In this document: in pieces, positions 2,872 through 26,829 of the stretch
How positions within the stretch are numbered: position 1 is the first letter of the stretch
Layout: every line of letters starts with the position of its first letter
Assembly: GCF_001984825.2 (NCBI RefSeq)
Contig: NZ_CP043318.1
Location: 4,154,001 to 4,218,000, forward strand
Length of the DNA stretch: 64,000 nucleotides
Direction: 5' to 3'
From: Enterobacter chengduensis
Lineage (GTDB): Bacteria; Pseudomonadota; Gammaproteobacteria; Enterobacterales; Enterobacteriaceae
Notes under the pieces: model-generated
Database searches by the model: none
What the model saw: the letters and a program-made list of their open reading frames with translations, nothing else
What the model was told of the DNA's origin: nothing
Made by a program: the position numbers and the translations under genes

Positions 2872-2895
2872 TGGAGCGGGCGAAGGGAATCGAAC
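2872..2895 (-). other. Attachment site, left copy (element A/B junction)
   Basis: The 24 bases are identical to 26806-26829, the 3' end of tRNA-Gly(CCC), in the same orientation. Identity stops after the shared GAATCGAAC. Such duplications are left when an element integrates by recombination at a tRNA 3' end. The neighbouring integrase starts 92 bases to the right. Confidence 0.85.
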
Positions 2896-2987: not shown

Positions 2988-4193
2988 GTGTCAATCAAGG
3001 GCCAGGCTTACCTATACAAACGAAAAGACGGAATCTGGATGTTTCAGATCTTCGTCCCGAAGTACCTCAGATTTTTATATCCGTGCCGGATGTGGCGCAA
3101 AACCACCTCAACCCGCGATCTCAATGAGGCTCGACGGTTCAGAAACTACCTCTTATTAGAATGGGAAGAGCTTAAGCGGAAGTACAATCCGAGCAACCCC
3201 GATCAGTGGTTGCAGCAGTCAATAGCCGCCTTGCATACCGAAGAGAAGAAGAACAAGAGCCGCCCTCAACCTGTAACGCGATCCTGTTCGATTCCCACTC
3301 TGTGCCTATTACGGGACGAATACGCCGAAAGCTATAAAAACCGCCGCTCTTATTCAACGTTAAGCAAATCAGCGCGAGCCGTTGAACTATTCCTTGAAAG
3401 TGCCAAACAACCGGACATTGCCTTAGAAAGGATAGGCCGCCGCCTGGTGACTGAGTTCCTCGATACACAAAAGGAGAAAGGAGCCGCCGATCAATCTCGT
3501 CAAAACTGGCTAACGTGTTTAGGGAGCCTCTACGAGTTTGCAAAGCGCCGCTACGATGGCATACCAGACCGCAACCCTTTTCACGGTCATAACCTCGAAG
3601 CACGCCGCACGATAGAGAGTTATCAGCCGTTTGAACCTGACCAGATGCAAAAGTTACTTGATGCAGCAGAGCCGGAGATCAGGAACATCATAATCATGGG
3701 GCTGTTTTCAGGATGCCGCCTTGATGAACTGGCAAGCCTAAAGAAGTCAGAGATCAAAACGGTGGAATGTGTACGCTGTTTCTACATTTCGAAATCAAAG
3801 ACTAAGGCGGGGGTACGGTACGTCCCTATTCATTCCCGGCTATCTGCGATTGTCGATGAATACCTGAACCACAGTTACGGCGAATACCTGTTCCCACAAG
3901 CTAACAAGATTAACAGGAAGGATGGTAAGAAAGGGCCGTACTACTCTCAAAACTTCACCAGGTTGCGTGACAAGGTTTTGCCTACCGCTACAGATCGTCA
4001 ATGCTTCCACAGCTTGCGCGGGATGTTCATCACATGCTTAGACCGTGCCGGGGTGCAGGAAACAAGAATAGGCAGTATCACCGGACACACTGAACAGAAA
4101 GCGAAAACCGAAGCATTCCGTACCTATTCACAGGGGGCGAGCATGGAAGAGTTAGCAGGGTATGTCGAATTGGTGGACTACCCTGAAATCTAA
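2988..4193 (+). CDS. Tyrosine integrase of element B
   Basis: A 401-residue phage-type integrase. The N-terminal part (about 1-60, YLYKRKDGIWMFQIFVPKYLR) is the short beta domain seen at the start of a family of island integrases; a SAM-like core-binding domain follows (about 95-200), then the catalytic domain with Arg in SGCRLDE, His-x-x-Arg in HSLRGMF, GH in GHTEQK and Tyr in FRTYSQ. It points away from the att copy at 2872-2895, as expected for an integrase at an element end. ATAGGTAACT occurs beside both ends of element B (about 2960 and 16925), a candidate arm site. It should integrate the element into tRNA-Gly. Confidence 0.88.
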   Translation: MSIKGQAYLYKRKDGIWMFQIFVPKYLRFLYPCRMWRKTTSTRDLNEARRFRNYLLLEWEELKRKYNPSNPDQWLQQSIAALHTEEKKNKSRPQPVTRSCSIPTLCLLRDEYAESYKNRRSYSTLSKSARAVELFLESAKQPDIALERIGRRLVTEFLDTQKEKGAADQSRQNWLTCLGSLYEFAKRRYDGIPDRNPFHGHNLEARRTIESYQPFEPDQMQKLLDAAEPEIRNIIIMGLFSGCRLDELASLKKSEIKTVECVRCFYISKSKTKAGVRYVPIHSRLSAIVDEYLNHSYGEYLFPQANKINRKDGKKGPYYSQNFTRLRDKVLPTATDRQCFHSLRGMFITCLDRAGVQETRIGSITGHTEQKAKTEAFRTYSQGASMEELAGYVELVDYPEI

Positions 4194-4329: not shown

Positions 4330-5526
4330 ATGATAATTAAACCCAAGATTCGTGGTTTCATCTGCACAACTACACATCCGGTTGGTTGCCAGGTCAACGT
4401 AAACAAACAAATCGAGTACGTCCGCAAAAACGGAAAACTCACTGATGGTCCTGCACGTGTGCTGGTGATCGGTGCCTCAACTGGTTATGGGCTTGCATCC
4501 AGAATTTCTGCAGCATTTGGCGGTGGTGCTTCCACTATCGGTATCTTCTTTGAAAAACCGGGTACGGATACCAAGCCTGGCTCTGCGGGCTGGTATAATT
4601 CTGCGGCTTTTGATGAAGCAGCGAAACGTGAAGGTCTTTACTCGAAAAGCATCAACGGCGACGCGTTCTCCGATGAGTGCCGCGACGAAGTTATCAGCCT
4701 CATCAAAGAAGATCTGGGTCAGATTGATTTAGTGGTTTATTCGCTTGCATCTCCGGTAAGAAAGATGCCAAAAACAGGCGAAATTGTTCGCTCTGCGCTG
4801 AAGCCAATCGGTGAGGTTTATACCTCTAAAGCCATTGATACCAACAAAGATCAGATCATTACTGCCAGTATCGAACCGGCAACCGAAGAAGAAGTGCGTA
4901 ACACTGTTACCGTGATGGGTGGCGAGGACTGGGAACTGTGGATTGATGCGCTTAATAACGCTGGCGTTCTGGCTGATGGTGTGAAGACCGTTGCTTACTC
5001 CTACATCGGCACGGATTTGACCTGGCCTATTTACTGGCACGGTGCGCTCGGTAAGGCGAAGGAAGACCTGGATCGGGCGGCAAACGCGTTACGCAACAAG
5101 CTGGCTCCTCTCAACGGTGCTGCAAACGTCGCGGTGTTAAAGTCTGTTGTCACCCAAGCGTCTTCAGCTATTCCAGTCATGCCGCTTTATATTTCTATCG
5201 TGTTCAAGCTCATGAAAGATCGTGGGATCCACGAAGGCTGCATCGAGCAAATTAATCGTCTGATGACTACCAGCCTATATGGGGGTAGTGCCAAACTTGA
5301 TGACGAGCAGCGAATCCGCATGGACGATCTGGAACTTCGGGAAGACGTTCAGCAAGCATGTCGAGATCTGTGGCCGACGATCACCAATGAAAATCTGGAG
5401 CAGCTAACAGACTACATTGCTTATAAAGAAGAGTTCCTGAAGTTGTTTGGTTTCGGATTTGAAGAGGTTAACTACGAAGCCGATACCGATACAAACATAG
5501 ATTTTGATGTGAAAACATTAATCTAA
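4330..5526 (+). CDS. fabV: Trans-2-enoyl-ACP/CoA reductase FabV
   Basis: FabV reduces the enoyl-ACP double bond with NADH in the last step of each fatty-acid elongation round; this class is known to be little affected by triclosan. The 398-residue length is normal. Visible marks: start [20 protein letters not shown], the nucleotide-binding loop [15 protein letters not shown] (about 46-60), the extended Rossmann body and the Y-x8-K active site as [22 protein letters not shown] (Tyr then Lys). Enteric bacteria normally use FabI, so this copy is an extra, transferred gene. It follows the integrase by 136 bases, has its own terminator and lies inside element B. Confidence 0.93.
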
Positions 5527-7576: not shown

Positions 7577-7687
7577 TCAAACATCCCGAGATTCAGTTTT
7601 GCGTTCTGTTTTTCTACGTTTTTCAAAGGTGCGGATTGCATCCCAGATAAACAGGAACAGCAGATACCAGTAAAGCGCGATAATCAT
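7577..7687 (-). CDS. Small single-helix membrane protein, 36 residues
   Basis: The frame starts MIIALYWYLLFLFIWDAIR, one hydrophobic helix, then a basic tail EKRRKTERK. Its ATG overlaps the stop of the helicase gene (ATGA), so it is the last member of a tightly coupled four-gene unit. Role unknown; perhaps membrane anchoring of the partner protein. Confidence 0.45.
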   Translation of the reverse strand: MIIALYWYLLFLFIWDAIRTFEKRRKTERKTESRDV

Positions 7688-9144
7688 ACGTAAGCGCCCT
7701 GGTTCCAGTAGGTTGCGACTGTCCTCACAGACACCGCCATCACTTCAGCAGCCTTTTTCTGAGTTAGCCCTTGCGCCTTGTATTCCAGCACCTTCAAGCG
7801 TGTTTCTTCCTGCTTGCCAGCTTTCTTGATCCCAAGGCATTCGATGGTTGAGCCAGGGAAGTAATGGGTTTTGAGGTATTCCGCTGCCGCCATGTCGGGA
7901 ACGACAAAGACGAGAGGGTGATCGGTATCAGTGTTGCGAATGGATGTTCGGCTAAGAAACTGGTAGCACCGTTCAAGATACATTGCCTGGCGCTTCTTCT
8001 TCATCACCGTTTCAAAATCCCAACCGATACGTTTGCAATAGTCAGCCCATCTCTTACGATCTTTATCGCCCAGATTTGCACATCCGAGGAACACAGCACT
8101 GTGAACATCCTGGTAGCTGTTCATTCCGTAGCTGGACATCGAAACAGCTTCACCTCCCATGCGATCACCGAGCTCAGCGAGTCCAATAGTTTGGAAGTCA
8201 CAGATGGGTTTATCGTTGTTAGTTGCGAAGATAAAATCCTTCCCAACAATCTGATTTATCTCTTTCAGATGACTGTTAAAAACATTAGCCAGCTCTGACT
8301 GCCCCGCTCTTTTGACATCTTCTGAGAGGACAACCACAATCTTGATAGGCACGTTCTTATGCTTGCGTCTCTCGGGTTCTGGCTGAAGGTGTTCCCCGGC
8401 TTCCTGTACTGCGATTTGAGCAACGTTCTCAGCCATCCATACAAACCCACTGCGATCTACACCAGCGCCAAGCACAGTGAAGCTCTTCGCCCACGTTGCG
8501 GCCTTCAGTATCGGGTTATAAGTGTATGCAAAGAAGCTGTATGAAGAATCACACTCGGTATGCATCACACCACCACCGTCGAGCGCCACGTAAAGCACTT
8601 TCTTCAGGCTGTCGCTGTTAGCGTGCTTCTCATGGTAATACTGGTACAGCTTGTCGTAGTGCTCATCACGCAAATAGAGCAACCCGTTTCGCTCTTCCAG
8701 CCATGCCAGGAATGGGAAGTTTTCTGCCGTTCTGTCCGCATGTCGGATCTTCGCTTCAGCCCCAAACCAACCATCAGGGATCTCGTCAATCATCACGTTG
8801 TGTTCTGCCAGTAGAGAGCGCATCTCAGGATTGAACGTAGCGAGGTGGCAGTAGTTGGTGAAACATTCGTGGGTGGTTATCACCACATTCGTTTGGAAGC
8901 TGTTCGCCAGAGTACTTTTCAGGTTGAGAGTCGCACCTTCAACGCAAATGTGATGATTTGGGATTCTCAAACGATTTAGTTCTTGCTTGAACTGCTCGGC
9001 TAAAGCGTGGGTTGGTACTACGATTAAGAACTTTTCTGGGACAGCTTCTCGATTGAAGTCGTAAATGTGTTCTTTCAAACGGTGGCTCTTTCCTGAGCCG
9101 CAAATCGCATTAACGAAGTTTACTACTGGTTTCTTTTCGGTCAT
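7684..9144 (-). CDS. Helicase-like ATPase with C-terminal HTH, candidate replication protein
   Basis: A 486-residue protein. Walker A is AICGSGKSH (about 13-21); IVVPTHALAEQFK is motif Ia-like and VMIDEIPDG is a DEx-type Walker B of superfamily-2 ATPases. The last 40 residues hold a helix-turn-helix (GLTQKKAAEVMAVSVRTVATYW). ATPase plus sequence-specific DNA binding fits an origin-recognising replication protein of a plasmid or satellite; a regulator is the alternative. It overlaps its neighbours on both sides and lies downstream of an RHH gene and of a long AT-rich non-coding region that could hold the origin. Confidence 0.6.
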   Translation of the reverse strand: MTEKKPVVNFVNAICGSGKSHRLKEHIYDFNREAVPEKFLIVVPTHALAEQFKQELNRLRIPNHHICVEGATLNLKSTLANSFQTNVVITTHECFTNYCHLATFNPEMRSLLAEHNVMIDEIPDGWFGAEAKIRHADRTAENFPFLAWLEERNGLLYLRDEHYDKLYQYYHEKHANSDSLKKVLYVALDGGGVMHTECDSSYSFFAYTYNPILKAATWAKSFTVLGAGVDRSGFVWMAENVAQIAVQEAGEHLQPEPERRKHKNVPIKIVVVLSEDVKRAGQSELANVFNSHLKEINQIVGKDFIFATNNDKPICDFQTIGLAELGDRMGGEAVSMSSYGMNSYQDVHSAVFLGCANLGDKDRKRWADYCKRIGWDFETVMKKKRQAMYLERCYQFLSRTSIRNTDTDHPLVFVVPDMAAAEYLKTHYFPGSTIECLGIKKAGKQEETRLKVLEYKAQGLTQKKAAEVMAVSVRTVATYWNQGAYV

Positions 9145-15753: not shown

Positions 15754-16479
15754 TTATTTGTTAACTGGTACTAACTCCAAAACGCCATAATGCGCCTGTC
15801 TGTGACAGTTCGGGCACAATGCAATCGCATTTTCAACGGAATCCTCCCCACCATTCGAAAGCCACTCAATGTGATGAACCTCAAGAAATGGTGTGCCGTC
15901 TACTTTGAGAAAAGGAGCGTCACTCTTACAGCTTTGACACTTGCCATTAGCCCTTGAAAGAACTTCGGCTACCACATAGGGGCTTCGCTTATAAACTCGT
16001 GTTGTAACCTCGATTAGCTCAGGAGTTTTATTCTCAGCGTCTAAAATCTCTTTGCGTTCTGACGGGGGCAGTTCTGACGCATCATCAACAGCCTTTTCAA
16101 ACTCAGATTTCACCTTACGGTAACACCATTTACCTTGCTGATCCTGATACAACTCCCAAATACCATGAATAGAGGGTTGATAGATTTCAAAGATCTTCCC
16201 TCGCTTGAACAATCGGTCATACTCATGATGCCGATGGGTTACATCATCAGTTCGCCTGGCTGTTTTGTTGAAACTCCAGTAGCTACGATTGCAGTTGACT
16301 GAGTTGACAATGAGATTCAAGTGGGTGTCGTCTTTATAATGTGGAAATCGCTCTTTCAGATAAGCATCCACTTGCTTCGCCGTTGCCGCCCCTCCGAACT
16401 GTTCCTCAATCACTTGGACAGTAGTGATTCTTATCGGTTGGTCGCCATACTTGTATGTTCGATTTGCTTTTGAAGACAT
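15754..16479 (-). CDS. HNH endonuclease
   Basis: A 241-residue protein. The C-terminal domain is a canonical HNH nuclease: CQSCKSDAPF, then FLEVHHIEWLSNGGEDS, then ALCPNCHRQAHYG (two CxxC zinc pairs, HH, N, H). The N-terminal 150 residues (AAATAKQVDAYLKERFPHYK, then a tryptophan-rich stretch GIWELYQDQQGKW) look like a DNA- or modification-sensing domain, as in McrA-like type IV restriction enzymes. No methylase is nearby, which fits modification-dependent cutting. Start at 16479; the ATG at 16482 is one codon up. Last gene of element B. Confidence 0.82.
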   Translation of the reverse strand: MSSKANRTYKYGDQPIRITTVQVIEEQFGGAATAKQVDAYLKERFPHYKDDTHLNLIVNSVNCNRSYWSFNKTARRTDDVTHRHHEYDRLFKRGKIFEIYQPSIHGIWELYQDQQGKWCYRKVKSEFEKAVDDASELPPSERKEILDAENKTPELIEVTTRVYKRSPYVVAEVLSRANGKCQSCKSDAPFLKVDGTPFLEVHHIEWLSNGGEDSVENAIALCPNCHRQAHYGVLELVPVNK

Positions 16480-16544
16480 CAAAAAACCTCTTGCAATCTA
16501 AGATTTATCTTAGATTAACTATCGAGCATAACTTGTGCAACTCT

Positions 16545-17390: not shown

Positions 17391-17855
17391 CTACTTTCTC
17401 AGTTTGTCCCACCGAACCGCAGATACGATACCCCAGTTGCCGCTAGGATTAGGCCTACGCCATTTTGCTGTCTCCATGCTACGAAGATACTCAAGAGCTT
17501 CAGAAAACGTGCCAAAACGCTTCTGAGCCGCTTTATCACCTACACCAAACGAACCATCGCGGGTGCTTGCCAGTCCGGGATGAAAACACGAGCCATCAGC
17601 TGCATAGGGGACCAGTAATTCCGGGTCACTATCTTCAGATGAATCAGACACCAACAGTTGCCACGGCTCAACACTCAGAGCGTTAGCCAGCACCTCAATT
17701 GCATCCAAAGACGCATTAGAACCGCCGCGTTCAATGCGGCTCATATAGCTACGAGCAAACCCACACCGATCGGCAAAGGCTTCCTGGCTCATTCCGGTGG
17801 CAATGCGCAACTCTTTTACTCGTTGTCCAAACAGTTTTCTCAGGGTCATTTTCAT
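17391..17855 (-). CDS. XRE-family transcriptional regulator
   Basis: A 154-residue regulator. The lambda-repressor-type helix-turn-helix spans residues about 8-62 (GQRVKELRIATGMSQEAFADR, then YMSRIERGGSNASLDAIEVL). The C-terminal half (FHPGLASTRDGSFGVGDKAA, then FSEALEYLRSM) is a domain seen in regulators of mobile elements; effector unknown. It is transcribed away from the exported-protein gene at 17972 and may control it and the element. Confidence 0.82.
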   Translation of the reverse strand: MKMTLRKLFGQRVKELRIATGMSQEAFADRCGFARSYMSRIERGGSNASLDAIEVLANALSVEPWQLLVSDSSEDSDPELLVPYAADGSCFHPGLASTRDGSFGVGDKAAQKRFGTFSEALEYLRSMETAKWRRPNPSGNWGIVSAVRWDKLRK

Positions 17856-17971: not shown

Positions 17972-18724
17972 ATGTCAAAAACACGGCTTAGTAAGCCCGG
18001 ATTTTCAGCCAAGTCTGTGCTGACCATTATGTTAATCGCTGCGTCATCTGCATCTTATGCAGCAGAAAGCATCGATCAACTGGCGACGCGCATCGGTATG
18101 GATCACTTCCGGGAAGCGATCAAAAAGGGTGATCGCAGCCCCTTCAAAACGCTGCCGGCAAAAGGCTATAAAAACGGACTTACCGGGTTGCTCATCAAAA
18201 CTAACACCTACATTAACCCCGAATACAGCTTTGCTGATTGCGATACGGACACCGTTATTATCTCGGTGCAAGAACACAAAACACTCCCTGGTTGCCGCAT
18301 ATCTCTAAAGCTAGCGACTAAAGATGCTGACGGTAGCTATCACGATAATGGCATTCGCATCGAATATGGTATTGCCACCGGCTCCAAAAAGTTTATCGCC
18401 AACAATTCAGCGTGGGCGCAACATGCCATCAGCGGTGATAAAGTGCTGGAAGGCGCTCTCCACCCGGATAAAACGAATAACCATAAAGATCAAATGTGCA
18501 TGGGTATGGCACAATTCACCTCAAACGTAACCGAAGGCCGAAACAGTGGAATGACGAAAGAAGAATATTATCAACGACTTGATAATATGAACGGTAAGTC
18601 AGATGTCACACCTCAAATGATCACGCTATACAAGAGCTTTGTTGACTACGTGTATGATCATCCAAGACAAGATGCTAAAGTTTCGGCGGCATTTATTTAC
18701 GCTAACTGCCTGAATACCTTCTAG
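17972..18724 (+). CDS. Exported hypothetical protein
   Basis: A 250-residue precursor with a longer signal region (basic start, hydrophobic SVLTIMLIAASSASYAAES, cleavage near residue 30). The mature part has four cysteines (FADCDTD, LPGCRIS, DQMCMGM, YANCLNTF), so disulfides are likely. Residues NAWAQHAIS-type helices and the final KVSAAFIYANC give a mostly helical look. Not recognised. GAGGGATAAC precedes the ATG. It stands between the XRE gene and the two-gene RexAB-like module. Confidence 0.6.
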   Translation: MSKTRLSKPGFSAKSVLTIMLIAASSASYAAESIDQLATRIGMDHFREAIKKGDRSPFKTLPAKGYKNGLTGLLIKTNTYINPEYSFADCDTDTVIISVQEHKTLPGCRISLKLATKDADGSYHDNGIRIEYGIATGSKKFIANNSAWAQHAISGDKVLEGALHPDKTNNHKDQMCMGMAQFTSNVTEGRNSGMTKEEYYQRLDNMNGKSDVTPQMITLYKSFVDYVYDHPRQDAKVSAAFIYANCLNTF

Positions 18725-18959
18725 TTATGCTCTGAATTTAGAAATTAGCCTAAGAGCATACTTTGGAACTAATCTCTCTTGTTAATTCACTCTTGCACGG
18801 CAATAAAGAGGGCGAGACACATTTAGAACTAGCAAAGAAATACTACTACTTTGCACAACTTCGTTACGATCTTGCCCTATGTGTGTCTCCATAATTTTTT
18901 CTTCATCTTTCAATATTTTCGTGAAATACTTCGAAAAACCACATTTGAGAGATGACTGT

Positions 18960-20075
18960 ATGAGCGTTGGCATTGTCACATTTCACAAGCATACCCAGCT
19001 TGGTTTTTACCGTTATGGTCATGATGATTATTGTGAACCACTTGAAATGGATGCCCTTCTCTCATCTCTCCATGTGTGGTTTCAAGATAGAGTGTCACTT
19101 GAAGACACGCTTCTTTGGGATGACGAAACTCCAGGCTACTCTCATCGTAAAAAGGTTTATCTGAAATCAATCGAAAAAGATGAGGAGACTGGCGAGTATA
19201 TTCTTGTCCTTTGGAGAGCGGTGGGAAGTGGGGATGGTGTTTACGGCATTAAAGCTGATGCGCGGCTTGATGACAACACTTTATATGATGCTAATAATGC
19301 AGCAGATGGAGCGCGAGTCATTTGGGGTGAAGCCTCCTATTACTGGTTTATCCCATCTAAAAACTTGTTTGCGTCTATCCGATTCTCTAACTCAATCGCA
19401 GATACTAACCTGATGAATTTATTTTTCAGGGATTTTGTCTGGTTACACGCAGACATAAGAGAAAAACGACGAGAAGTTAGAGAGGGAAAAACAGGAGCTT
19501 ACACAACCGTATCGTTTCCTGCACAGCAAGCCGGTGAAACTGGAAATCTGTGGTTTCGTATCAGTTCAAAACAATATACAAAACTCACAACACGAGCTGA
19601 TCTTGGAGCTATCGCCCGTGACATAACGCATTTTGTAAAGCGTGAGGTGATTGCCGCAAGAGAAGTCGATCAAGCCGACTGGACAAGATTTTTCGGAAGG
19701 CTTCCATTCGTCTCTGCTGAAATTACAAAAGATACCCGTAAAGTAGAGATAAATATTGAAGCGAAACCTACGGCAGAAGAATTGCAGCAAATTTTCGAGC
19801 AATATGCCGAGGATTATAATGGCGGTTTAGACGGCTGGCGTAACCTTGGGTTTAGAAAAGAAGGTGTTGGTGGTATTTGTTGGTTAAATAGCTTCGTTGT
19901 AAAAAATGTTCTGCCAATAGATGATACAACTGGTGGCGGCGTGGACGATACAGGCCATTATACGGCTCAGCGGCTGTTTACTGCTCTACAATTCAAACGC
20001 GATGGTTTGCTTGCTCCATTCGGCGTTGGCGTGGCTGAAGCTGCTGCCCCCCAAGCAGTTCGGGAATTACCATGA
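18960..20075 (+). CDS. RexA-like cytosolic protein of a candidate abortive-infection pair
   Basis: A 371-residue soluble protein starting MSVGIVTFHKHTQLGFYRYG. The outline follows lambda RexA: a short N-terminal beta domain, a stretch SYYWFIPSKNLFASIRFSN (compare the FLFVEGDTIGFAR part of RexA), then a C-terminal domain with RKVEINIEAKPTAEELQQIF. It is longer than RexA (279 residues). Its stop overlaps the start of a four-helix membrane protein (ATGA), just as RexA precedes the membrane protein RexB. I infer a phage-sensing factor working with the membrane partner. The family call is from pattern and context, not a search. The frame opens at 18879, but ATG 18960 fits the domain start. Confidence 0.5.
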   Translation: MSVGIVTFHKHTQLGFYRYGHDDYCEPLEMDALLSSLHVWFQDRVSLEDTLLWDDETPGYSHRKKVYLKSIEKDEETGEYILVLWRAVGSGDGVYGIKADARLDDNTLYDANNAADGARVIWGEASYYWFIPSKNLFASIRFSNSIADTNLMNLFFRDFVWLHADIREKRREVREGKTGAYTTVSFPAQQAGETGNLWFRISSKQYTKLTTRADLGAIARDITHFVKREVIAAREVDQADWTRFFGRLPFVSAEITKDTRKVEINIEAKPTAEELQQIFEQYAEDYNGGLDGWRNLGFRKEGVGGICWLNSFVVKNVLPIDDTTGGGVDDTGHYTAQRLFTALQFKRDGLLAPFGVGVAEAAAPQAVRELP

Positions 20076-20599
20076 AGAATTACACAATTATAGCCTGGCA
20101 TCTACCTTTAGCTGTGGCAGTAACTTATATTAGTTACTGCTTTAGGCTAGATATTACCTTTAAAGATGTTGAACCTATAATCTCAATTTTGCAAAACACA
20201 TCAGCAATGATTTTTACAATCATGGGTATCTGGATTGCCTATGTTTATCCAAATGCTGTTTTAAAAATTGTTCAACCCTCAAAAGTGACCACAATTTTCT
20301 CAGAAGATGACCTAAAAAGAGTAAAACTTCTAGTCGGGGTGGTAATTTCCTCAGCATTCATTCTGTTATTATTATTAACTGGGGTTACGTTAAAAACATT
20401 CCTGACAAAAACTGATATTTTTTCACGATACTGGCAAGTATTTACAGGTATTGGCTTATGGTGTTTACTGTCTTTGATTTATGCGCAATTGTTTTGTATT
20501 TATGCGGTAATTGCATCAAGTGTAAATTTCATTATCGACTTAAAAAACTTAAATACAAAGAAACGGTTATCGGAAAAGCTTGATGGAAAACAGAAATAG
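20072..20599 (+). CDS. RexB-like four-helix membrane protein
   Basis: A 175-residue inner-membrane protein with hydrophobic segments at about residues 9-25, 43-62, 84-107 and 121-152, and a Lys-rich tail. Lambda RexB (144 residues) also has four segments and forms an ion channel that depolarises the infected cell when RexA signals. Gene order, four-base overlap and topology all match that arrangement. It could also be a toxin of an unrelated membrane-disrupting system. A strong terminator follows, so the pair is a closed unit. Confidence 0.5.
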   Translation: MKNYTIIAWHLPLAVAVTYISYCFRLDITFKDVEPIISILQNTSAMIFTIMGIWIAYVYPNAVLKIVQPSKVTTIFSEDDLKRVKLLVGVVISSAFILLLLLTGVTLKTFLTKTDIFSRYWQVFTGIGLWCLLSLIYAQLFCIYAVIASSVNFIIDLKNLNTKKRLSEKLDGKQK

Positions 20600-20613
20600 C
20601 ATACACCTCAATA

Positions 20614-20645
20614 ATAAAAGCGCATTTATAATGCGCTTTTGTTTA
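20614..20645 (+). terminator. Terminator of the RexAB-like pair
   Basis: AAAAGCGCAT, loop TTATA, ATGCGCTTTT (20617-20640), then GTTTACTTT. Confidence 0.75.
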
Positions 20646-20804: not shown

Positions 20805-21365
20805 TTAATCTAAGATCGCTGCTATCGTCGCTCTGGAAACGCCATATTCACGCGCTAACGCGCTGACACTGGTTCCGCTATTCTTTTTCACTACAATCAC
20901 TCTACGGGCTTCTGGTGCGATTTTAGAAGGTCTACCCAATTTCTTGCCTTCGGCTTTTGCTCGCGACAAACCCGCCTGAGTGCGTTCAATCAGTAGATCA
21001 CGCTCCATCTCCGCAACCGCTGCCAACATCGACAACAGAAGCTTACCGGCAGCAGAAGTGAGGTCAGTTGTTCCAAGCTGGTGGACGATCACTTTGATGC
21101 CGCGATCAGATAACAATCGGACTGTCTGGAGCACGTCGATAGCATCACGCCCCAAACGGTCGAGTTTTGCCACTACCAGCGTTTCACCGGTTCGAATTTT
21201 GCCAAGCATTTCAGCAAACGCCTTACGCTGAATTGCCTGAACTTTCCCGCTAACAATATCAGCAAACCAAAAGTCAAACGTCCAACCAGCTTGCTCAAGC
21301 TCCAACCTCTGGTTCTCCGTATCTTGCTGAGCGGTAGAAACACGCCCGTAGCCGAAAATCGCCAT
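20805..21365 (-). CDS. Serine recombinase (resolvase), element C
   Basis: A 186-residue small serine recombinase. Ser10 in GYGRVSTAQQ is the nucleophile; VVAKLDRLGRDAIDV holds the arginines; the C-terminal helix-turn-helix is GTSVSALAREYGVSRATIAAIL. It resembles Tn3-type resolvases more than the element B enzyme does. ATG 21365 is preferred over the GTG at 21374 because GAGGTG precedes it and the protein start fits the family. Probably resolves multimers of the excised element. Confidence 0.87.
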   Translation of the reverse strand: MAIFGYGRVSTAQQDTENQRLELEQAGWTFDFWFADIVSGKVQAIQRKAFAEMLGKIRTGETLVVAKLDRLGRDAIDVLQTVRLLSDRGIKVIVHQLGTTDLTSAAGKLLLSMLAAVAEMERDLLIERTQAGLSRAKAEGKKLGRPSKIAPEARRVIVVKKNSGTSVSALAREYGVSRATIAAILD

Positions 21366-21555
21366 TCTCAACACCTCTCAATACCTGTCAAAAAACGGTG
21401 TCAACAATAGGACGCCTGCCAACAATTGCCAAGGCTAATTTTTCAGCATCCCGGAAGATGCTTGCGAAGAGGTGCCGGAAAACGGTCGTTTGTTGGCGCT
21501 TAAAACGGATAAAGAAATGTTAAGCTGAAACCATCACTTCATAAGGACAACTGGA

Positions 21556-22178: not shown

Positions 22179-23192
22179 ATGAAGAGTCGAAAATACGTAG
22201 CTGCTGAAGCAGACCGCAAATCCTTTAAGGTTTCAGCCGGGATCGATTGGCTGGACTTAAAGATCAGCTTCTCCAGACTGACCCAGCATCGCTACGTTCA
22301 GGATGAATTACTTAAAATCACCGGATTAAAACTCTGGGTTAAACCCTGCGGTCTACGTATCTCAAAGTTGTCATCATGCGCCCCCCGTCCCGACAACAAC
22401 GTTAAAGCGTGGGTAAAACCTACGATAAGCAGCACTAACGATACTTTTCGGATTTGTTTCCGTGATCTACTGGCAAACCATGGCGGGAAGCTGGAAGCTG
22501 CACTCAAGCAATTGCAAGACCGTTTCCCATTTGCGTGTGAGCCACAAATCGTGGGAGTCGAAGTTTTCTGCGATTTCTGGCATAAACAACGGTCAGTATC
22601 AGCGACACGAGCAATGACCTATCGGCTTCAGACAAGCCTGTTTAGTAACGGAACCCGACCAAGGCAATTCAATCCCGCTTCGTGGAAAAATGTCTACCTT
22701 TTCCCCGGAACACGTATCACTCCATATCGAAACTTCAGGACAGGTAACAAGTGGGACAACATCTCGTGGCAGGTCTACCACAAACGCACTGACAACGATC
22801 AGAAACTACCTGTAGAAGAGCAACGCGCTCGTGTTGAAGTCACGTTAAAAGGTGCTGCACTCACTCACTACTCTCTTCACCATCTTAGCGACATGCAGCG
22901 TTTTCGATTTGAAACCCTCGCTCACCTGTTCAAATTTCGCAAACCAATTGAGCCTGAAATGATGGCTGACGGTGATTTGTTCCGGTTAACCGCTATCAAC
23001 GCAGTTCGTAAGGTGAACGACGCAACAGCCGAGCGCGGGTTGCATTCTTTCAATAACATCGGACGTAGGGATAAACGTAGCTGGATGATGGTTAACGTTG
23101 ACAAGCGCCTGCGGAAAGAAAGCTCGCATCTGGCGGTTGTTAGCGATCTGCAAAACGCCGTTAAGGGTGCTTTACGGCGCCTCCACGTTTAA
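22179..23192 (+). CDS. Replication-initiator-like protein (rolling-circle type)
   Basis: A 337-residue protein. The pattern SAGIDWLDLKISF near the start, ISWQVYHKRTDND in the middle and QRARVEVTLKGAAL further on recalls the replication proteins of filamentous phages and related rolling-circle plasmids, where R-x-E-x-x-L/F-K strands form the nicking domain. The catalytic tyrosine cannot be named with certainty. With the resolvase upstream and the integrase downstream it would give element C the ability to replicate after excision. Assignment is moderate; a phage morphogenesis or hypothetical protein is the alternative. Confidence 0.5.
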   Translation: MKSRKYVAAEADRKSFKVSAGIDWLDLKISFSRLTQHRYVQDELLKITGLKLWVKPCGLRISKLSSCAPRPDNNVKAWVKPTISSTNDTFRICFRDLLANHGGKLEAALKQLQDRFPFACEPQIVGVEVFCDFWHKQRSVSATRAMTYRLQTSLFSNGTRPRQFNPASWKNVYLFPGTRITPYRNFRTGNKWDNISWQVYHKRTDNDQKLPVEEQRARVEVTLKGAALTHYSLHHLSDMQRFRFETLAHLFKFRKPIEPEMMADGDLFRLTAINAVRKVNDATAERGLHSFNNIGRRDKRSWMMVNVDKRLRKESSHLAVVSDLQNAVKGALRRLHV

Positions 23193-24775: not shown

Positions 24776-26716
24776 TTACGGCTTGTGCTTGCGAACCCCG
24801 TCTTTCATCGCCTTCAGTCCCACCTCAACATTAAACGGAGCTATCTCAGGCAAATTGTGTTTAAGCCCGGAAATTGCGTGGAATTGCTCCTCAACAGCTC
24901 TGTCTTTACGATAGGTTGTCATGGCAGTAGTGCTTCCTCGAACATGTCCGACAAGTTGGGCGATCATCCGTTCACTTAACTCCAGTCGGTCGAGGCTATT
25001 CACATAGTTATGGCGGAATGAGTGAAAAACCTTCTTCCCATTACGGTCTAATCCAAGCTTCTTGCCAAAATAAAGTTCATTGAACCATTTTGACGCATAA
25101 CCACGATAACCTTTAATTTTATTGAAGGTTAACTCTGGAAAAACACGTTCCTGTCCATCAGCTTTCAAAGCTTTAACGTATTCAAGAAAGCCAAGCTCAA
25201 TCAGCCTTGGATGAATGGGAACCTGTCTCAACGCATTGAGCGTTTTCAGCGATTTATCCGCTTCAGCTTCAGTGTCCATAACTTTATCCGGTGAATCTAA
25301 ATTGAAGTCCAGATACGCAACACCATTTTCACTCATACGGATATCAGAAAGATAAAGTTGGCATAACTCATTCATTCGCCCACCGCTATATAACGCTAAT
25401 AGGGGTAACCAATAGCGATAAGGTCGAAAGTCAATATGGCGCCCGAATTTGTTCGGCACACCCTCGCCAGTTTTAAACCAGTATGCAGAGAATATGAGTT
25501 CCAGTTCATCATCTTCGAACTGATAACGGTCATCCTGAGATCTTGCAGTTTTCTTACGCTTTGCCAGAACATTTTCCACTGGATTGGCAATTAAATAATT
25601 TTCTTTACAGGCCCACTTTAACATTGAACCTAATGAGGCCATATGACGCCCAATCGCATCTTTCGTCATGAGCGACTCACCGGCATCAAGTGCTTTTTCG
25701 ATGAGTTGATCCAAATCTTCGGCAGCGTATCGGCGTTGCATTAAATACAAGTTACTGGGCATTCTTTGCATTCTGGAAACGTATTTTTTTACGACATTAC
25801 GATCTAACTCAACAAGTGTTAAGTCTCCCATAACGTCGATAAAATGAGATATTCGCGACCGGATTTTTTCCTCACTGGCAAGTTTGAGATCCCCTGAGTT
25901 CTTATACGCAATGAACTCCTCCAACACTTCTGAAACCGTTTTTGACGCGTGTAGTGGATTGCAAAACGGGTTAGAGATGATCAAAGGAGGGGGCGGTGGT
26001 GGTGGCACAACAGCCGGAACAGGAGGTAATTCAGGCTCAGATTTCGCAAACGCTTTATCCCACATGCTACGCAGCTTTTCAGCCTGCACATTGTTGATAA
26101 ATAAAGAACTTGAATCTATCGTAACTCCGGGCAAGTCCAGTAGCCAAAGAGCAAGGGGATTACCGTTGGTAGCCCTGAATGCAGTTATTTCCGTTGATAG
26201 CCCTTTAACCAATTTATTGAGGGCATGTAGCGGCATGTAAATCTGCATATAGCCGTTAACCATAGCCTCAGTGCCGTAATGAGCAACGTCGTTTAAAACA
26301 AAGCCATGCGTATCAGGGTCACGATCAATGGCAGTAAAATCATCAATCAGAAAACCCCGCTGGCTATCTACAAAAGCATACAGCGGAATATTGTCTGCCA
26401 AAAGATGCGGAACAACCGTTTCAAGCACCACATCAAATGATTCGCAAAACAGAGCCAAGCTGATTTTGCCAGCCCCCGCCAACAACGGGGCGTTTCCCCG
26501 AATTTTCTCTTTATCCACTTGCTTAAACTCTTCCAGAGACGCATACCACTTCTCCAACAAACGCGTGGCGATTGCCTTAGCATTTGCGAGGTGGGTTGTG
26601 CGGGTAGATGCATGTATTTCACGCTGCCCTATCAGGGCACGATACCGAACCGGAACGGTTATCCTCAGAACATAGATCCCGCTAGGACGTCGATAGAGAT
26701 TACCACGTTGCGCCAT
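24776..26716 (-). CDS. Tyrosine integrase of element C
   Basis: A 646-residue integrase, longer than most. N-terminal beta domain (residues about 1-60, LYRRPSGIYVLRITVPVRYR), a long middle region with a proline run (VPPPPPPPLI near residue 245), a core-binding domain (about 260-380) and the catalytic domain with Arg in SGGRMNELCQL, HSFRHNYVNSL, GHVRGSTT and Tyr in MTTYRKD. Its start is 90 bases from the tRNA-Gly 3' end and it reads away from it, the standard position for the integrase that uses this tRNA. TTGTAGGAGG repeats at both ends of element C are candidate arm sites. Confidence 0.9.
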   Translation of the reverse strand: MAQRGNLYRRPSGIYVLRITVPVRYRALIGQREIHASTRTTHLANAKAIATRLLEKWYASLEEFKQVDKEKIRGNAPLLAGAGKISLALFCESFDVVLETVVPHLLADNIPLYAFVDSQRGFLIDDFTAIDRDPDTHGFVLNDVAHYGTEAMVNGYMQIYMPLHALNKLVKGLSTEITAFRATNGNPLALWLLDLPGVTIDSSSLFINNVQAEKLRSMWDKAFAKSEPELPPVPAVVPPPPPPPLIISNPFCNPLHASKTVSEVLEEFIAYKNSGDLKLASEEKIRSRISHFIDVMGDLTLVELDRNVVKKYVSRMQRMPSNLYLMQRRYAAEDLDQLIEKALDAGESLMTKDAIGRHMASLGSMLKWACKENYLIANPVENVLAKRKKTARSQDDRYQFEDDELELIFSAYWFKTGEGVPNKFGRHIDFRPYRYWLPLLALYSGGRMNELCQLYLSDIRMSENGVAYLDFNLDSPDKVMDTEAEADKSLKTLNALRQVPIHPRLIELGFLEYVKALKADGQERVFPELTFNKIKGYRGYASKWFNELYFGKKLGLDRNGKKVFHSFRHNYVNSLDRLELSERMIAQLVGHVRGSTTAMTTYRKDRAVEEQFHAISGLKHNLPEIAPFNVEVGLKAMKDGVRKHKP

Positions 26717-26805: not shown

Positions 26806-26829
26806 TGGAGCGGGCGAAGGGAATCGAAC
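26806..26829 (-). other. Attachment site within tRNA-Gly
   Basis: The 3' part of the tRNA gene, identical over 24 bases to 2872-2895 and over 18 to 16990-17007. Integration kept the tRNA intact. Confidence 0.85.

Follow-up and report, generated by a model that had tools for sequence, protein, structure and literature searches.

Within a 64,000-nucleotide stretch of the Enterobacter chengduensis contig NZ_CP043318.1 (assembly GCF_001984825.2, positions 4,154,001 to 4,218,000; referred to here as the window), we analyzed two adjacent genes on a mobile island, A and B, which a preliminary description of this DNA had proposed to be an abortive-infection pair resembling RexA and RexB of phage lambda. 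The reading frames and hydrophobic segments bear out its account of a soluble 371-residue protein followed by a four-helix membrane protein: B contains four hydrophobic segments and A none, and the genes share four bases at an ATGA stop-start overlap that likely couples their translation (Table 1). The frame of A is open from 18879 to 20075 on the forward strand, with an in-frame upstream ATG at 18879, but aligned homologs begin at or near the ATG at 18960, which is therefore taken as its start. The AlphaFold model of B is helical nearly throughout (pLDDT 83.9), and the numbers of lysine and arginine residues per loop, from the N to the C terminus (1, 2, 4, 3, and 7), favor a topology with both termini in the cytoplasm. 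The second helix of B is strongly conserved, with an invariant tryptophan and an invariant YP. A strong terminator had also been described after the pair, and the 14-bp hairpin found there has a folding energy of -15.5 kcal/mol (z score of -5.2) that none of 200 shuffled sequences equaled; it was absent from the list returned by a simple consensus terminator scan. The four-base overlap recurs in 4 of 21 loci (L003, L006, L034, and L037) and in 3 of 5 loci of a second set (L047, L048, and L050).

Homologs of both proteins are numerous, with 82 protein clusters resembling A (including the window's own; identity down to 41%) and 102 resembling B. A B homolog lies directly downstream of A in all 33 A-bearing loci; 28 of these were fetched with A alone, every one of which carries B, and the search that gave the other 5 used the pair's own DNA. 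This set includes near copies (L010/L011 and L030/L055), while nine of the 14 loci from one search (duplicate contigs) fall outside it, as does L035, a P. aeruginosa plasmid whose match figures are identical to those of L030. Neighbors of the pair in the window are far less constant among the 33 loci: a helix-turn-helix (HTH) gene occurs in 6, the exported-protein gene in 5 (every one an E. coli island), and the resolvase in 5. Because B always adjoins A and these neighbors rarely do, we regard A and B as the functional unit, and we rejected the exported protein, the HTH regulator, and the resolvase as parts of the system. Both genes are under purifying selection, with ratios of nonsynonymous to synonymous substitution rates (dN/dS) of 0.05 for A and 0.09 for B against the E. 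coli copy L038, and of 0.07 and 0.09, respectively, against L006, where dS is near saturation (1.0 for A and 1.9 for B); no ratio could be obtained against L007 because of saturation.

The pair is sporadic and mobile. It is present in 8 of 5,426 E. coli genomes, in chromosomal locations in all 8, and one variant occurs with 99.9% DNA identity in two sequenced E. coli genomes. By annotation, the family is carried by a transposing phage, a P2/186-like phage, an integrative island, and plasmids, and the named hosts that we encountered are Gammaproteobacteria. In a survey of 369 genomes of the class, none of them a known carrier, an alignment of the A family (A8) matched none, and the PADLOC profile PDLC04494 matched one (E value of 5.8e-4, in an 882-amino-acid frame) and none of 14 control genomes.

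That profile identifies the pair in an existing catalog. A matches the PDC-M18A model of PADLOC-DB 2.0.0 (PDLC04494, E value of 3.7e-32), as do all 24 of 24 diverse members of its family, and B matches PDC-M18B (PDLC04500, E value of 1.5e-20). By these sequence matches the window pair is a member of PDC-M18, with the same two genes and no difference that we could find. PADLOC-DB lists PDC-M18 as a candidate with no description attached (PDC denotes phage defense candidate), and this listing is a prediction. Elsewhere, PHROGs holds two families of unknown function for the pair, with B matching PHROG 37654 (E value of 1e-23), and neither protein matched a Pfam or NCBIfam family above the cutoff. 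The name PDC-M18 was not found in the 5.39 million papers searched, nor was a link of this candidate family to the Rex fold and gene plan, which is the new element here. Two other PADLOC candidates have been put to the test, and no defense was seen (PMC12409345).

The link to Rex comes from structure and gene plan. The predicted fold of A is closest to the crystal structure of RexA, and its 17 best fold matches comprise RexA, RdgC, and kinetochore proteins of the CENP-N/Chl4/Iml3 type. RdgC, CENP-N/Chl4, and Iml3 belong to the same fold group but have roles in recombination or at the kinetochore, and we know of no comparable membrane partner for them. The wider Rex architecture is also present, in that the gene for a soluble protein precedes one for a four-helix membrane protein on the same strand, in a single operon, and a RexA/RdgC-type fold is predicted for the soluble protein. 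The paper on RexA names the RdgC/CENP-N/Chl4/Iml3 group as structural kin of that protein.

Sequence comparison recovered no such connection. The preliminary description had noted that the proteins are not close copies of the lambda pair and that A is about 90 residues longer than RexA, and this held: A did not match the RexA profiles PF15969 and PDLC02339, and B did not match the RexB profiles PF15968 and PDLC02340, placing the pair outside the lambda RexA and RexB families as far as sequence defines them. Profile-profile comparisons (hhalign) of the A family, in alignments of 20 and 24 rows, with RexA, in alignments of 4 and 33 rows (the larger with lambda RexA and 32 of 53 matches), gave E values of 0.59, 0.25, and 0.47, and B against RexB gave 0.22 with a thin RexB alignment of 3 rows. 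Profiles of A searched against Protein Data Bank (PDB) sequences found no RexA, whereas the RexA profile itself finds 8twq. None of 237 proteins examined as a bridge through the P. putida RexB carried at least four of the seven published RexB positions. The A family was also compared by hhalign with the Rex-type proteins of actinophages, with E values of 0.48 against CarolAnn gp44 alone and 0.29 against a CarolAnn/Sbash/Sejanus profile. As a control, RexA was compared with CarolAnn gp44, Sbash gp30, and Sejanus gp46, which gave an E value of 0.51, although a profile of 3 rows is thin and makes this a weak control; in addition, neither CarolAnn protein matched any PADLOC or Pfam model at E values up to 10. 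Tested Rex proteins of CarolAnn and Sbash thus fail the same comparison with RexA, so the failure of A does not exclude kinship, and Rex-type systems already include families that such comparisons leave unconnected. Kiwa, another two-gene system, consists of KwaA and KwaB in that order, the latter with a DUF4868 domain, and models for it exist in both libraries; no PADLOC Kiwa model and no Pfam DUF4868 was among the matches of A at E values up to 1.

Five RexAB-like systems have been described so far (PMC12894663). In four of the five (lambda, the P. putida pair RexABpp, CarolAnn, and Sbash), the four-helix membrane protein is the effector (PMC12894663), while the soluble protein binds DNA or responds to phage proteins, and growth stops (PMC12894663, PMC6426596, PMC6426606, PMC11077077). 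CarolAnn gp44/gp43 and Sbash gp30/gp31 resemble A and B in having nearly equal sizes (370 and 178 amino acids in CarolAnn), overlapping genes, and four membrane helices but no sequence match to the window pair; phage defense has been demonstrated for both and is triggered by a phage protein in each (PMC6426606, PMC6426596). RexABpp (PP_5643/PP_5644) differs in that HHpred ties PP_5643 to lambda RexA by sequence, a link that A does not show, albeit by a weaker method than HHpred. Overproduced P. putida RexA is toxic only together with RexB, and the membrane is damaged, with no depolarization measured (PMC12894663).

Some relatives of the pair in temperate phages lie behind the repressor, as rexAB lies behind cI. 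Among three annotated phages that we examined, the pair is downstream of a repressor in two: Vibrio phage 10N.222.45.E8_PE002 has A and B directly after the CI repressor gene and ahead of Septu and then a gene for type IV restriction, and in Pseudomonas phage Ps59 two genes separate the repressor from the downstream A and B. Providencia phage PSTCR3 carries the pair between antiterminator Q and the lysis genes. By eye, a repressor-like gene is upstream in 2 of 22 loci (L012 and L056; PSTCR3 is among the 22), with integrases or genes of no recognized type upstream in the others. The window pair differs from rexAB in this respect, as it sits on an island with no adjoining phage immunity repressor; Sbash also lacks repressor adjacency, and this neighborhood therefore does not define the Rex type.

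Taken together, these observations make it probable that A and B form a branch of their own, by sequence, among Rex-type abortive-infection systems, with A sensing infection and activating the membrane protein B. By analogy with the tested Rex systems, A would have the RexA/RdgC fold, would probably act as a dimeric clamp on DNA, and would recognize something produced by phage infection, for example DNA from replication or recombination, or else a phage protein. It would then activate B, a presumed four-helix oligomer of the inner membrane, which would compromise the membrane and halt growth before phage mature, with or without cell death, and so protect against phage. The net charge of A (-11) weighs against a simple DNA clamp; given this acidity, A may well respond to a phage protein, as the CarolAnn and Sbash systems do.

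Other explanations merit consideration. The pair may be a two-gene membrane-acting defense or superinfection exclusion system unrelated to Rex, in which case A would resemble RexA in fold only by chance, through an alpha/beta arrangement that is common. The lack of a profile link for either protein leaves room for this, whereas the gene plan and a predicted fold nearest to RexA speak for the preliminary Rex-type proposal, which is partly supported and concerned a family already listed as a PADLOC candidate; we consider an unrelated system unlikely. It is less likely still that the roles are reversed, as in mycobacteriophage Butters gp30/gp31, so that cytosolic A is the effector or toxin and membrane-bound B restrains it until infection. 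Butters gp30/gp31 have a two-gene anatomy like that of A and B (PMC12894663), and strict co-occurrence would be expected of a toxin with its keeper no less than of a sensor with its effector, but the second helix of B is conserved beyond the apparent need of a mere anchor, and the membrane protein is the effector in most described systems. Finally, A and B could be a housekeeping pair of the mobile element, such as an RdgC-like recombination modulator with a membrane partner that aids the element. This seems very improbable, as the family occurs sporadically, in the manner of cargo, on quite different elements, and a recombination gene serving the element would have no need of a four-helix membrane protein.

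What RexA senses and what RexB does are long-standing questions in phage genetics. If the Rex-type reading is correct, A and B would represent an RdgC/CENP-N-type DNA clamp gating a four-helix membrane effector, a plan known from only five described examples, and Rex branches would share fold and gene plan without sequence similarity detected by our comparisons. The balance of evidence tips toward PDC-M18 being a further widespread Rex sequence branch on islands, plasmids, and temperate phages, with RexAB a common defense plan. Tying PDC-M18 to the Rex fold would supply many natural variants for testing trigger and effector, and it suggests that Rex-type members can escape sequence searches, so that fold and gene order are needed to find them.

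Table 1. Features of the A-B locus and its island (window coordinates)
Feature	Position	Strand	Remarks
Gene A	18960..20075	+	371 aa, soluble, proposed sensor; PDC-M18A; predicted RexA/RdgC-type fold
Gene B	20072..20599	+	175 aa, four transmembrane helices, proposed membrane effector; PDC-M18B
ATGA stop-start overlap of A and B	20072..20075	+	4 shared bases, likely translational coupling
Hairpin with U-rich tail, probable intrinsic terminator	20613..20643	+	Folding energy compared with shuffles
XRE-type HTH regulator	17391..17855	-	PF13560, E value of 1.5e-13; local cassette, outside conserved pair
Exported-looking protein	17972..18724	+	Signal-like start judged by eye; local cassette, outside conserved pair
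Serine resolvase/recombinase	20805..21374	-	PF00239, E value of 2e-36; local cassette
Island tyrosine integrase adjoining tRNA-Gly	24776..26716	-	PF00589, E value of 3.1e-7
Right attachment core, 3' end of tRNA-Gly (ccc)	26806..26829	-	24-base exact repeat
Left attachment core, copy of tRNA-Gly 3' end	2872..2895	-	24-base exact repeat

The mobile-element setting between an exported-protein gene and a resolvase was likewise confirmed. Exact 24-base copies of the tRNA-Gly 3' end stand on both sides and appear to delimit an island of about 24 kb. A second integrase-like gene (2988-4193) at the far end resembles the annotated integrases of L038 and L039, and with integrase genes at opposite ends the island may be composite. 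The flank past tRNA-Gly has 90% identity to two plasmid-collection records labeled Enterobacter hormaechei, which carry actS, lysS, prfB, recJ, and dsbC there. The regulator gene adjoins that of the exported protein, which is read from the other strand, and the PADLOC models closest to the regulator are those of restriction-modification control proteins (E value of 3.8e-18); the exported-looking protein matched no family in Pfam, PADLOC, and NCBIfam scans. In the five E. coli locations examined out of the 8, the cassette has the order HTH, exported protein, A, B, recombinase, and its island ends at a tRNA-Gly adjoining actS, with changing neighbors. The tRNA-Gly island of E. coli SY3626 (L039, 17672-31362) also carries an AAA ATPase, DUF3944 and NIPSNAP proteins, and two more integrases, and the site looks as if it were a cargo hotspot.

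Several other genes share the window's island. An HNH protein (15754-16482, reverse strand) matches type IV methyl-directed restriction models (PADLOC E value of 2.5e-23) and has a relative (50% identity over 118 amino acids) in the Vibrio phage described above, alongside its A-B pair and Septu. A 337-amino-acid protein (22179-23192, forward strand), with no Pfam match above the cutoff, is 93 to 99% identical in the E. coli islands L039 and L061, where it lies beside the cassette. The product of 4330-5526 (forward strand) resembles, by eye, a FabV-type enoyl-ACP (acyl carrier protein) reductase, and a 486-amino-acid protein (7684-9144, reverse strand) has weak helicase matches (HamB-like, E value of 9.3e-5).
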